34,979 nucleotides of DNA, taken from NCBI GenBank assembly GCA_021731365.1, contig JAKFXL010000043.1, positions 1 to 34,979 on the forward strand. The letters run 5' to 3'. This document shows, in pieces, positions 7,151-11,399 of the stretch (within the stretch, counting starts at the first letter, position 1; every line of letters starts with the position of its first letter). Source of the DNA: Gammaproteobacteria bacterium (GTDB lineage Bacteria; Pseudomonadota; Gammaproteobacteria; Tenderiales; Tenderiaceae). The notes below the pieces were generated by a model. It saw only the letters and a list, made by a program, of their open reading frames with translations, made no database searches and had not been told where the DNA came from. The position numbers were made by a program, and so were the translations under genes.

Positions 7151-8230
7151 ATGGCCGACACAGAGCACAATCTCAACCAGCGCACCTTTCTGCCGGACTT
7201 TTGCAACATCCGCATTGTCTTTTCAATCGTGGTCATTGCCGAGCTGCTGGCCATCGTACTAACCTTGGCCAGCCCCGGCAGCCAGCAGGACCAATGGAGC
7301 TATCTAAGCCTCAGCTCCCTGTTTATCCAATGGATCGCCCTGCTCTCCGCCGCCACCCTCTGCCTCTTGCGCCCCCTGCTGGCACGGCTGGATGACAATC
7401 ATACCGCCATCGCCGCGTATGGGCTGTTACTGCTGATCACCCTCCTCCTGAGCGAAGCGGCCTATTGGGTCAGCGATAACCTGGGGGCCGGCTCACTCAG
7501 CATCACCATGAATCACCTGGAGTTTCTGGGCCGCAACTTGGCCATCTGCGCCATCACCAGCTTTATCACCCTGCGCTACTTCTATCTACAACATCAACTC
7601 ACCCGGCGTATCGAGGCGGAAAACCAGTTTCGCCTTCAGGCACTGCAGGCCCGTATTCAACCACACTTTCTGTTTAACAGCCTCAATACCATCGCCAGCC
7701 TGATCCGCCGCCAACCGCGCCAGGCCGAAGAGGCCGTTGCCGATCTGGCCGACCTGTTCCGCCACACACTCAGCGATACCACCACCCGTGTGGCACTGAC
7801 CGAAGAGCTGGAGATCACTCGCCGTTATCTGCAGATTGAGCAATTACGTCTCGGCGATCGACTGCACGTAGAGTGGCAGATAGAGTCCCTCCCCAGCGAC
7901 GCCACCCTGCCATCATTAACACTGCAACCGTTGCTGGAGAATGCCATCTACCACGGCATTGAAAAACTGGCCGATGGCGGTACCATTCAGTGCCACGGCA
8001 GCTTTGATGGCAAACTACTACGGTTAACAGTCATCAACCCTGTAGCCAGACATGACGAAAAAAACAGCCGCCCCAGTCTTAACATGGCGCTGGACAATAT
8101 CAGCCAACGCCTGCAGGCCCATTTTGAAGAGCAAGGACGGCTAACAGCCAGCCAGCAGGCGGGGCACTATCAGGTCGAGTTACAATTCCCCTATATGCCA
8201 CACCAGCAGAGCACGACCACCCCCCGATGA
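7151..8230 (+). CDS. algZ: LytS/AlgZ-type membrane histidine kinase
   Basis: A 359-aa sensor with four predicted membrane segments in its first 145 residues (for example [20 protein letters not shown] and [12 protein letters not shown]). A His_kinase domain follows, with the phospho-acceptor motif [10 protein letters not shown] (His172) and the ATP-binding N-box [13 protein letters not shown]. The later G-box region is degenerate ([12 protein letters not shown]), as in Pseudomonas AlgZ/FimS. The gene overlaps algR by ATGA, and the pair lies between argH and the hem genes, the classic AlgZ/AlgR position. In Pseudomonas the pair controls exopolysaccharide and type IV pili; the targets here are unknown. 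The best ribosome-binding sequence (GGAGAG) is about 16 bp upstream, rather far. Confidence 0.9.
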
Positions 8231-8985
8231 AAATATTGATCGTTGATGATGAACCCCTCGCCCGCAGCCGACTCCGCGACCTGCTTGATGACATTGGCGG
8301 CCACACCATCGTCGGGGAGGCGAGCAATGGTCGCGATGCGCTGACACAGGTGCAGGCACTGCAACCGGAGATCGTCCTGCTCGACATCCGCATGCCCGAA
8401 CTGGGCGGCCTTGAGGTAGCCATGCATCTGCGTCGCTTTGACAACGCCCCCACCGTCATCTTTACCACCGCCTATGACGAACACGCCTTAAAGGCGTTTG
8501 AGGCCAACGCCATCGACTACCTGCTCAAACCGATTCGCAGCAGCCGGCTGGAGCAGGCCCTGGCCAAAGTGCACCGCCCAACCCAAGATCAACCCATCAT
8601 CCCCCCCACACATACCGATGGCACACAATCAGGACGACAGCACATCTGCGCCCACCACCGTGGCGGCCTCAAGCTCATCCCCATCGATGAGATCATCTAC
8701 TTCCAGGCCGACAGTAAATATGTATCCGTCTTTTTCCAAGGCGGCGAAGTGCTGATCGATGATCCACTGAAAGAGCTGGAACAGGAGTTTGGCGACCGCT
8801 TCATCCGTATCCACCGCCGCACACTGGTGGCCAACGCCTTTATCGAAAGTCTGAACCGTGACAGCCAGGGGCAATGCCTGCTCAAACTCCGTGAAATCGA
8901 CACCCTCTTCGAAATCAGCCGTCGCCAACTACCTCAGGTACGTAAACTGCTAGCCGCCATCGGCGGCATTGGCGCAGCGGAATAG
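8227..8985 (+). CDS. algR: LytTR response regulator AlgR
   Basis: A 252-aa DNA-binding response regulator. The receiver domain occupies residues 1-120, with the acidic pocket Asp7/Asp8, phospho-acceptor Asp53 in LLDIRMPELGG, and the conserved lysine in YLLKPI. A linker rich in Pro, Thr and His follows. The LytTR DNA-binding domain (about 140-245) shows DEIIYFQADSKYVSVF and RFIRIHRRTLVA. The start overlaps the algZ stop, so the two are translationally coupled. The family binds as a dimer to direct repeats. Next to it in Pseudomonas comes hemC; here two extra genes intervene. Confidence 0.93.
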   Translation: MKILIVDDEPLARSRLRDLLDDIGGHTIVGEASNGRDALTQVQALQPEIVLLDIRMPELGGLEVAMHLRRFDNAPTVIFTTAYDEHALKAFEANAIDYLLKPIRSSRLEQALAKVHRPTQDQPIIPPTHTDGTQSGRQHICAHHRGGLKLIPIDEIIYFQADSKYVSVFFQGGEVLIDDPLKELEQEFGDRFIRIHRRTLVANAFIESLNRDSQGQCLLKLREIDTLFEISRRQLPQVRKLLAAIGGIGAAE

Positions 8986-9013
8986 CTTAAAAGCCCCGCT
9001 TTAATCCGTTTCC

Positions 9014-9032
9014 CTGTCGACAAAATTTACAG
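9014..9032 (+). promoter_or_regulatory. Candidate activator-binding site upstream of the PEP-CTERM gene
   Basis: CTGTCGACAAAATTTACAG is an imperfect inverted repeat (CTGT...ACAG) containing the perfect palindrome TGTCGACA. It lies about 90 bp upstream of the sigma-54 -24 element, the distance expected for an enhancer-binding activator. In some bacteria PEP-CTERM genes are controlled by RpoN with the PrsK/PrsR two-component system. Assigning this site to a PrsR-like protein is inference. Confidence 0.4.
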
Positions 9033-9102
9033 CACTGTCCCTACCACTGCTCAGACCACATAAAAAATCAATTAAATCAATCAAGTAACCGTCAAAAAAA
9101 GA

Positions 9103-9118
9103 TGGCTCACAACTTGCT
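9103..9118 (+). promoter_or_regulatory. Sigma-54 (RpoN) promoter
   Basis: TGGCTC-A-CAAC-TTGCT matches the -24/-12 consensus TGGCAC-N5-TTGCW with the invariant GG (9104-9105) and GC (9116-9117) exactly 10 bases apart. Transcription would begin near 9129, leaving a 5' leader of about 37 bases. The AT-rich upstream stretch with ATCAA repeats (9066-9085) could be bent by IHF, although no full IHF consensus is present. Confidence 0.75.
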
Positions 9119-9165
9119 TGTGCCCTCCCCGGGGATTAATTTAAGCATTACGGGAGAGCACAAAC

Positions 9166-10116
9166 ATGAAGCTGGAGTTTTTTCCAAAAAGACCACTTGT
9201 CATACTTATCACCAGTATCGGACTACTCGGTACCCTGCCCGCCCATGCCACCGTCATTGACGGCCTGACGGCGCAGACATCGACCCAGGTAGGCACCAAT
9301 GCGGTCGTCACCAACGGCCCCAATATGAGCACTACCGCAACATCAGCCTTCTCAAACGACAACGATACCCAATCCGCGGCAAACGCCAGCTCATTTGGCA
9401 ATGCTGTTGGCCCCTATGGCGCGGGGGGTAACGGCAGCGGCGTCTTTGATACCACAGGCAGATTTATGCGCCAGTGGGACATCACCAATGACAGCGGCGT
9501 TGCACAAAACTACAGCTTTAACTTCTTCATCTACTACGGCAACCTGTCTGCCAGTGACAACAGCGCTGGCGGCAGCGGTTATGCCGAATACGAGGCCAAA
9601 ATCCTGCGTGACGGCATCACCACACTCTTCAGCAGCGCCGCCAAAATCACCAGTGGCGGCACACTCACCACCAGTGGCACCACACTCACAGGGGCCACAC
9701 AGTCTGGTTCCAGTTACAGCTGGGGCGGCACCTACTTTACCGTCGATCTAGGCGTACTCAATCCTGGTGAATTCACCTTTGTACAGTACGACCTGGTCGG
9801 CCATGCCTTCGGAGACTACGGCTTTTCCACCTATGATTGCGGTGGTGATGGCTATGGCAGCGGTGATGGCTACGGCAGTAGTGATGGTTATGGCAACGGC
9901 GACCTCATCACCCCCTTGGTCACCGACACCCCTGGTGCCAGCCAATGCACAACCACCGGTTCATCTTACTCATTCCTGGGGGACCCCGACACCCTCAATA
10001 CCACCCCCATCGCGGGTATCGGCATAACATCACAGGCGGTACCCGAACCGGCCATGCTTGGCCTGATGGGATTGGGTCTGGCGGCCTTTGGACTACGCCG
10101 TCGCCCACGCAACTAA
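9166..10116 (+). CDS. PEP-CTERM sorted extracellular protein
   Basis: A 316-aa secreted protein. It has an N-terminal signal peptide (KRPLVILITSIGLLGTLPAHA, cut near residue 27), a long Ser/Thr/Gly/Asn-rich beta-type body, and a C-terminal sorting signal: the motif VPEPAML, a hydrophobic stretch and RRRPRN. Family knowledge: such tails are recognised by an exosortase in the inner membrane, and the mature protein goes to the surface or matrix of exopolysaccharide producers. Residues 227-244 hold three copies of a GDGYGS-like hexapeptide. GGGAGAG precedes the ATG. The gene has its own sigma-54 promoter and a strong terminator, so it is a single transcription unit. No exosortase gene is in the window. 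Confidence 0.9.
   Translation: MKLEFFPKRPLVILITSIGLLGTLPAHATVIDGLTAQTSTQVGTNAVVTNGPNMSTTATSAFSNDNDTQSAANASSFGNAVGPYGAGGNGSGVFDTTGRFMRQWDITNDSGVAQNYSFNFFIYYGNLSASDNSAGGSGYAEYEAKILRDGITTLFSSAAKITSGGTLTTSGTTLTGATQSGSSYSWGGTYFTVDLGVLNPGEFTFVQYDLVGHAFGDYGFSTYDCGGDGYGSGDGYGSSDGYGNGDLITPLVTDTPGASQCTTTGSSYSFLGDPDTLNTTPIAGIGITSQAVPEPAMLGLMGLGLAAFGLRRRPRN
9844..9897 (+). repeat. Three tandem 18-bp repeats encoding GDGYGS-like units
   Basis: In-frame units encode GDGYGS, GDGYGS and SDGYGN, differing mainly at third codon positions. The coded segment is Gly/Asp/Tyr-rich, and calcium binding or flexible-linker behaviour is plausible. Slippage could change copy number without breaking the frame. Confidence 0.8.
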
Positions 10117-10135
10117 CCATCCGCAGTTTTTTATA

Positions 10136-10161
10136 ACGGGCACTCGGGTGCCCGTTTTTTT
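10136..10161 (+). terminator. Intrinsic terminator of the PEP-CTERM gene
   Basis: An 8-bp GC-rich stem, ACGGGCAC with GTGCCCGT around a TCGG loop, is followed by a run of seven T. It lies 20 bp after the PEP-CTERM stop codon and 20 bp before the glycosyltransferase start, separating the two genes. Confidence 0.9.
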
Positions 10162-10181
10162 GACTGCGTAAAAGGAAACAC

Positions 10182-11399
10182 ATGGCTACCATTGTAATGA
10201 TCTGGGAGCTGGGGGCCGATCTGGGCCACATCAACCGGCTGCTGCCCATAGCATTGTGTCTGCGCGAGGCGGGGCACCACCCCGTGATGCTGCTACGGGA
10301 TATCAGTCGTGCCGAGTCGATCCTCGGCGCACATCAGCTGGCGTTTTTGCAGGCACCAGTCTGGCTGACTCCCGTCCATGGATTGCCACCCGACATCAAT
10401 TTCACCGAAACACTGTACCGTTTTGGCTATCTCCATCCCGACGGCCTGTTATCAATGGCCAAGGCGTGGCGCACCCTGTGGGCGCTGCTAAACCCCGACC
10501 TCATGATTTTTGACCATGCCCCCACCGCGCTACTCGCCGCACGTGGCCTACCCATTCCACGGATGATCATCGGCAATAGCTTCGGCATCCCCCCGGCGGA
10601 ACGCCCGCTGCCACGTTTTCGCTGGTGGACAAACGGTACGGGAGAACAGCCACGGCTTGAAGAGACCGAGCAGCGCGCCACCCGTAACAGCAATGCGGTA
10701 CTCAAACAGCTGGGTGCGCCCCCCATCGACCAGCTCTCCGACCTCTTCCAGGCCGAAGCCCTCCACATCTGTGGCCGCCCCGAACTGGACGTCTATGGCC
10801 CACGCAACCACGAGGTGTATATAGGCCCCATCAATACCACCACCCTGGGGGCCACACCGCACTGGCCACTGGCAGAGGGACCTGCAGTTTTTGCCTACAT
10901 AAAACCCCACTACCAACATTTTGAGGCGCTGCTCAAAACAATAGGCAACAGCAAGGCGCGCTACCTCATCTTTGCCCCCGGCATACCCGAGGCGCTGGTA
11001 CGCCGCTATCAAAAAGGGCACATCCGGTTCAGCACCACCCCTTTGCGGATGGATGAGGTCATTAAACAGTGCCATGCGGTTATCTGCCACGCCGGTGGCA
11101 TGACGGATATCGCCCTCGACGCCGGCAAGCCTCTGCTCCTGTTGCCCACCCAGATGGAACAGACCATGACCAGCCATCGGGCGGCGGCCTTGGGCGCGGC
11201 GCTCTTTTTACCCACAGAAGGCAATCCCGGGCTGCTGCCAAAACTACTCAGACAACTACTGGAAGATAGTGCCCTCGGCCAGTGCGCGGCTCAATACGCC
11301 GCCACTCTGCCACACACCGACCCATCAATAGCCGTCGCCCAAGTGGTTGCCAGTTGCAAAAACCTGTTGGCCATACCGACCACAGCAAACCAGCGATAA
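10182..11399 (+). CDS. GT1/MurG-like glycosyltransferase
   Basis: A 405-aa cytosolic or membrane-associated enzyme of GT-B fold. The N-terminal half starts with a Rossmann strand and acceptor-side loop, IVMIWELGADLGHINR, as in UDP-glycosyltransferases that modify lipids or small molecules. The C-terminal half has the nucleotide-sugar site VICHAGGMTDIALDAGKP (His303), LLLLPTQMEQ and the Gly/Ala-rich helix after it. AAAGGAAA precedes the start. The acceptor and sugar cannot be told from sequence. It sits with the PEP-CTERM gene in a segment that separates algR from hemC, which suggests a role in surface glycans, but the terminator between them means they need not be co-transcribed. Confidence 0.85.
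   Translation: MATIVMIWELGADLGHINRLLPIALCLREAGHHPVMLLRDISRAESILGAHQLAFLQAPVWLTPVHGLPPDINFTETLYRFGYLHPDGLLSMAKAWRTLWALLNPDLMIFDHAPTALLAARGLPIPRMIIGNSFGIPPAERPLPRFRWWTNGTGEQPRLEETEQRATRNSNAVLKQLGAPPIDQLSDLFQAEALHICGRPELDVYGPRNHEVYIGPINTTTLGATPHWPLAEGPAVFAYIKPHYQHFEALLKTIGNSKARYLIFAPGIPEALVRRYQKGHIRFSTTPLRMDEVIKQCHAVICHAGGMTDIALDAGKPLLLLPTQMEQTMTSHRAAALGAALFLPTEGNPGLLPKLLRQLLEDSALGQCAAQYAATLPHTDPSIAVAQVVASCKNLLAIPTTANQR

Follow-up and report, generated by a model that had tools for sequence, protein, structure and literature searches.

The region in front of the PEP-CTERM gene at 9166–10116 of the window (the whole stretch of DNA that was analysed, 34,979 nt) is very probably a PEP-CTERM box, that is, an enhancer-dependent sigma-54 promoter run by PrsK/PrsR. 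We make this assignment because a 17-nt element ending in TTTACA is followed, 71 bp further on, by a -24/-12 element. Both the operator and its assignment to PrsR are already published, and there is nothing unusual about this locus as a member of a known family. At the level of that family, however, the boxes appear from their sequences to share a positioned IHF-like site and a helically phased spacing; a specialist is likely to find only these two results of interest.

Operator, promoter and gene

Motif 1 of the box, the predicted PrsR-binding site, is 17 nt long, ends in TTTACA and has no mismatch to the family consensus TGTCGR-N5-TTTACA (Table 1); TGTCG-N6-TTTACA occurs once in the window, both strands counted, and that occurrence is the motif 1 site. 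An earlier reading of this DNA (the sequence-only reading) had proposed as operator a palindromic 19-mer, CTGTCGACAAAATTTACAG (9014–9032), inside which motif 1 lies. The symmetry is present in the outer CTGT/ACAG arms, but the core is asymmetric (TTTACA reads TGTAAA on the opposite strand and so differs from TGTCGA), a property common to the rest of the box family. The base that follows the consensus shows little preference across a set of 159 boxes, in which TGTCG and TTTACA are invariant by design, having been fixed by the search pattern. The same reading had put the operator forward as a new candidate specific to this locus, a view that does not hold, a motif 1 ending in TTTACA having been published in 2006 (PMC1569441).

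The promoter reads TGGCTC-ACAAC-TTGCT, with GG at 9104–9105 and GC at 9116–9117 and thus exactly 10 nt between them, as had been claimed and as can be read directly from the letters; these coordinates place the predicted start near 9129. The only match to TGGC-N7-TTGCW on the + strand of the window is this element. From edge to edge, the gap between motif 1 and TGGC is 71 bp (the "about 90 bp" given earlier is correct as a start-to-start distance), and about 47 nt separate the -24/-12 element from the ATG. Both distances fall inside the ranges of Haft 2006, 32–92 nt and 23–221 nt, respectively.

The 316-aa product of the downstream gene carries a C-terminal PEP-CTERM domain that exceeds the cut-off of both PF07589 (29.7 bits; cut-off 20.7) and TIGR02595 (24.0 bits; cut-off 16), which confirms the earlier designation of the gene. 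A strong terminator (10135–10156, followed by a T run) lies 3' of the gene, which therefore is predicted to form a single-gene transcription unit.

Table 1. Features of the PEP-CTERM locus, in window coordinates
Feature	Position	Strand	Basis or remark
PEP-CTERM box motif 1, predicted PrsR-binding site, TGTCGACAAAATTTACA	9015–9031	+	Sequence read; consensus match; class-wide recurrence; Haft 2006
AT-rich spacer, operator to promoter, 71 bp	9032–9102		Sequence; spacing distribution of 159 boxes
IHF-like site AATCAATCAAGTA, 1 mismatch to WATCAANNNNTTR	9075–9087	+	Weak for the locus taken alone
Sigma-54 -24/-12 promoter, TGGCTCACAACTTGCT	9103–9118	+	Sequence; predicted start near 9129
GGGAG, Shine-Dalgarno-like	9152–9156	+	Sequence; inferred
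PEP-CTERM protein gene, 316 aa	9166–10116	+	PF07589, TIGR02595 above cut-off
Sorting motif VPEPAMLGLMGLGLAAFGLRRR of the PEP-CTERM protein	encoded at about 10036–10110	+	PF07589/TIGR02595 searches
Intrinsic terminator, 9-bp stem and T run	10135–10163	+	Terminator search and sequence read

Recurrence of the box and its regulators

The TIGR02595 model has 16 hits in this genome. A scan for the motif upstream of other PEP-CTERM genes, which the sequence-only reading had proposed as a check, placed boxes at half of them: the pair of motif 1 and -24/-12 element precedes eight hits (0–2 mismatches, spacers of 62–85 bp), and the remaining eight have at least 5 mismatches. A loose composite pattern gave 6 matches in the genome versus 0 for the reversed control. 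Two simpler search patterns were rejected. A search for the 19-mer as such, with as many as 3 mismatches allowed, was uninformative (22 hits versus 24 in the control) because its outer C/G and inner A-run are not conserved, and the -24/-12 element alone was too degenerate, with 138 matches in the genome versus 44 in the reversed control. At two of the genome's own boxes (L025 and L021) the -12 element departs from TTGC (GTGCC, ATGCT), so that strict promoter patterns undercount the regulon. Another box (L019; contig C38, about 10744–10961, minus strand) precedes a 47-aa PEP-CTERM protein that comprises little beyond a signal peptide and the sorting motif.

In addition to the anatomy of the locus, the presence in this genome of genes for PrsK, PrsR, PrsT, RpoN and IHF-alpha is established here. 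In profile searches, in which the three Prs proteins were called by NCBIfam cut-offs, PrsR scored 728 bits (cut-off 502.6), PrsK 812 (cut-off 300) and PrsT 806 (cut-off 312); their genes are adjacent on contig C18, alongside that for an EpsB2-type TIGR03013 glycosyltransferase of the XrtA system. The genome encodes one RpoN (512 bits) and one IHF-alpha.

Across the class, a strict composite pattern gave 51 matches in 35 of 274 genomes, as against none for the reversed control, and a relaxed version applied to 369 genomes found matches in 90 of them, with 4 control matches in total. PrsR exceeded the cut-off in 73 of the 274 genomes, and its distribution follows that of the box: it is present in 32 of the 35 genomes with a strict box, compared with 41 of the 239 without a match (Fisher p = 3e-18), and, conversely, the strict box occurs in 32 of the 73 PrsR-positive genomes but in only 3 of the 201 PrsR-negative ones. 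PEP-CTERM proteins were called downstream of 29 of the 51 strict boxes and 41 of 108 further boxes (with 6 and 10 on the wrong strand), counts that come from crude automatic calling and are not exact fractions. With recurrence at PEP-CTERM genes, co-occurrence with PrsR, and PrsK, PrsR, PrsT and RpoN all encoded, the earlier proposal of a sigma-54 promoter with a distal site for a PrsR-type activator is supported.

The same data bear on whether the -24/-12 element, although real, might be driven by a different PrsR/NtrC-like sigma-54 activator of this genome. About nine further NtrC-type proteins are encoded (240–382 bits against the PrsR model), and in the PrsR search of 274 genomes three box-positive genomes (G136, G206 and G224) had no PrsR over the cut-off. 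However, a single protein of this genome passes the PrsR cut-off, the co-occurrence of box and PrsR in the class is strong, and DAP-chip in Desulfovibrio (see below) links a PrsR homologue to promoters of this kind; we regard control by another activator as highly unlikely.

The PEP-CTERM gene is flanked by an AlgZ/AlgR-like pair (7151–8985) on one side and a glycosyltransferase gene (10182–11399) on the other. The AlgZ/AlgR-like pair adjoins argH and hem genes, such that the PEP-CTERM and glycosyltransferase genes sit between the algR-like gene and hemC. AlgR regulates exopolysaccharide in pseudomonads, and the PEP-CTERM gene lies directly downstream of the pair, so the LytTR response regulator at 8227–8985, which is AlgR-like, could together with its AlgZ-like kinase control the gene, the box being decayed or secondary. 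Against this, the box is intact (0 mismatches), a search of 8900–10250 yielded no sigma-70-like promoter, and boxes elsewhere in the genome were matched irrespective of the neighbouring regulators, and we consider such control extremely improbable. That the motif match arose by chance in an AT-rich intergenic region, as short degenerate patterns do (witness the -24/-12 element searched alone), is barely credible given composite counts of 6 versus 0 in the genome and 51 versus 0 in 274 genomes, upstream of PEP-CTERM genes.

Control by PrsK/PrsR is thus the reading that we prefer. A Burkholderiales MAG (L039), the sole useful relative from one orthologue scan, encodes homologues of the PEP-CTERM protein (44% identity) and of the glycosyltransferase (60%) in the same order, and in the box in front of this pair motif 1 has a single mismatch and the spacer is 86 bp long. 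The sequences support the idea that the promoter is conserved along with the gene pair, and the retained order (9166–11399 in the window) suggests that the PEP-CTERM and glycosyltransferase genes may be a functional pair. A search for the PEP-CTERM protein in 11 genomes from this organism's family, among them the genome analysed here, gave one weak relative, which had no clear box.

Spacing classes and an IHF-like element in the spacer

The spacers of the 159 boxes fall into three classes, 49–54 bp (19 sites), 61–65 bp (90 sites) and 71–77 bp (42 sites), with only 4 sites at 55–60 bp and 4 at 66–70 bp between them. The classes are about 11 bp apart, or roughly one helical turn, and this regularity suggests that PrsR has to lie on one face of the helix. 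Because the searches covered only spacers of roughly 48–80 bp, longer ones (such as the 85- and 86-bp cases, seen by hand) are under-sampled. (A Rayleigh test for periodicity was set aside in favor of the three-class histogram because any period would look significant in data with one dominant cluster.) The 71-bp spacer of our locus sits at the lower limit of the third class.

The sequence-only reading had described the spacer as an AT-rich, bendable stretch, and at the level of the family the spacer indeed holds a positioned IHF-like site. Spacers were scored for the IHF consensus WATCAANNNNTTR against dinucleotide shuffles. Among the 51 strict boxes, 27 contained a match with at most one mismatch versus 6.3 plus or minus 2.3 in the shuffles (maximum 14 in 300), and 8 contained an exact match versus 0.4 expected. 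Matches in the reverse orientation start 31–33 bp upstream of TGGC, and those in the forward orientation 19–21 bp upstream. IHF introduces a pseudo-symmetric bend, a geometry on the basis of which the bend centre can be placed; from both start positions, we infer a bend centre that lies some 20 bp ahead of TGGC whichever way the site points.

Positions fixed from the 51 boxes were then tested on 108 boxes found by the relaxed search and absent from the first set; these come from the same class and in part from the same genomes, and are independent by site but not by lineage. At the fixed positions, 33 of the 108 had a match with at most one mismatch versus 1.0 plus or minus 1.0 in the shuffles (maximum 4), and 69 had a match with at most two versus 7.8. 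In neither box set did any of 1000 permuted consensuses reach the observed count, and the signal dropped to background once the positions were slid by 4 bp or more. Moreover, column composition, which makes no assumption about IHF, revealed the same footprint, with AA peaking at -31/-30 and AT-rich sequence spanning -25 to -15. The text of Haft 2006 (PMC1569441) makes no mention of an IHF-like element or of three discrete spacing classes, and a search of the openly accessible literature for PEP-CTERM together with integration host factor returned nothing on PEP-CTERM promoters by title or abstract. In the reports covered, a positioned IHF-like site in PEP-CTERM boxes appears to have gone undescribed.

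At the locus itself, the best IHF-like match starts 28 bp upstream of TGGC, 8–9 bp away from the family norm of 19–21 bp. We think it likely that the box has three parts, namely a PrsR site, an IHF site that can point either way but keeps its bend centre about 20 bp from TGGC on the upstream side, and a -24/-12 element. In this model the PrsR site would be allowed just three positions, one helical turn apart (spacers near 52, 63 and 74 bp), and the present locus, with its 71-bp spacer, would be a variant whose IHF site is displaced. Together, the positioned IHF-like site and the spacing classes would provide testable rules for how PrsR reaches the RpoN polymerase.

Proposed mechanism and relation to known systems

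Haft 2006 described a 17-nt motif ending in TTTACA, separated by a spacer averaging 62.8 nt (32–92) from a sigma-54 motif, as a pair that precedes 99 of 167 PEP-CTERM genes from proteobacteria, with the start codon 23–221 nt away, and matched the distribution of the box to PrsR, PrsK and PrsT (PMC1569441). The switch described there relies on a two-component regulator dedicated to activating genes for exported surface proteins. Our locus shares with that description the TTTACA-ending operator, a spacer in range, the -24/-12 element, a single PEP-CTERM gene, and PrsK, PrsR and PrsT in the genome, and differs from it in nothing of substance. In Desulfovibrio vulgaris, DAP-chip showed in vitro binding of the PrsR homologue DVUA0057 to its five predicted PEP-CTERM targets (Rajeev et al. 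2011, PMC3333781), although, by the authors' account, no binding motif was validated for it; this regulon, too, has a PrsR-type regulator with predicted PEP-CTERM targets, but in a different organism. The start of pepA of Aquincola tertiaricarbonis RN12 was mapped to a -24/-12 element by primer extension, its transcription needs rpoN1, and an enhancer is predicted upstream (PMC9850573). Our locus resembles pepA in its promoter, its predicted upstream enhancer and the terminator after the gene; however, pepA lies beside prsT, whereas here the gene lies between algR-like and glycosyltransferase genes.

At IHF-assisted sigma-54 promoters such as nifH and Pu, a bend site lies between the activator site and the -24/-12 element, which is also where the box family has its putative IHF-like site. 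In the boxes, unlike at those promoters, the site, recognized from sequence, occurs in both orientations, and its inferred bend centre is common to many genomes.

The DAP-chip and pepA literature makes the mechanism at the locus known in outline, and its local steps are as we infer them here. The membrane kinase PrsK would phosphorylate PrsR, which would bind motif 1 about 106 bp upstream of the predicted start. The spacer would then loop, probably aided by IHF or by intrinsic bending, and the ATPase activity of PrsR would open the RpoN-RNA polymerase at the -24/-12 element, giving a single-gene transcript predicted to run from the promoter to the terminator at 10135. PrsR binding and RpoN dependence are carried over from relatives in the literature, and the signal, looping and IHF binding are presumed for this locus. 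Under control of this kind, about half of the PEP-CTERM hits in this genome, the present gene among them, would belong to a single PrsK/PrsR regulon.

The family-level rules may also sharpen the pattern by which members of the regulon are recognized, among them proteins without a PEP-CTERM motif. Boxes in this genome (L032, contig C2 190384–190491 and downstream) and in another (L054, genome G178) precede two homologous proteins (BLASTP 6e-9, 27% identity) that have a twin-arginine-like N-terminus (SRRKFS/SRRRLA) and neither the PEP-CTERM motif nor an NCBIfam match; judged by sequence, these are possible non-PEP-CTERM targets of PrsR. Further candidate targets of this kind are a short conserved protein of about 115 aa preceded by a box in two relatives (L103 and L104), and a protein, likewise preceded by a box (L070), whose N-terminus resembles by eye that of a C39-peptidase ABC exporter.
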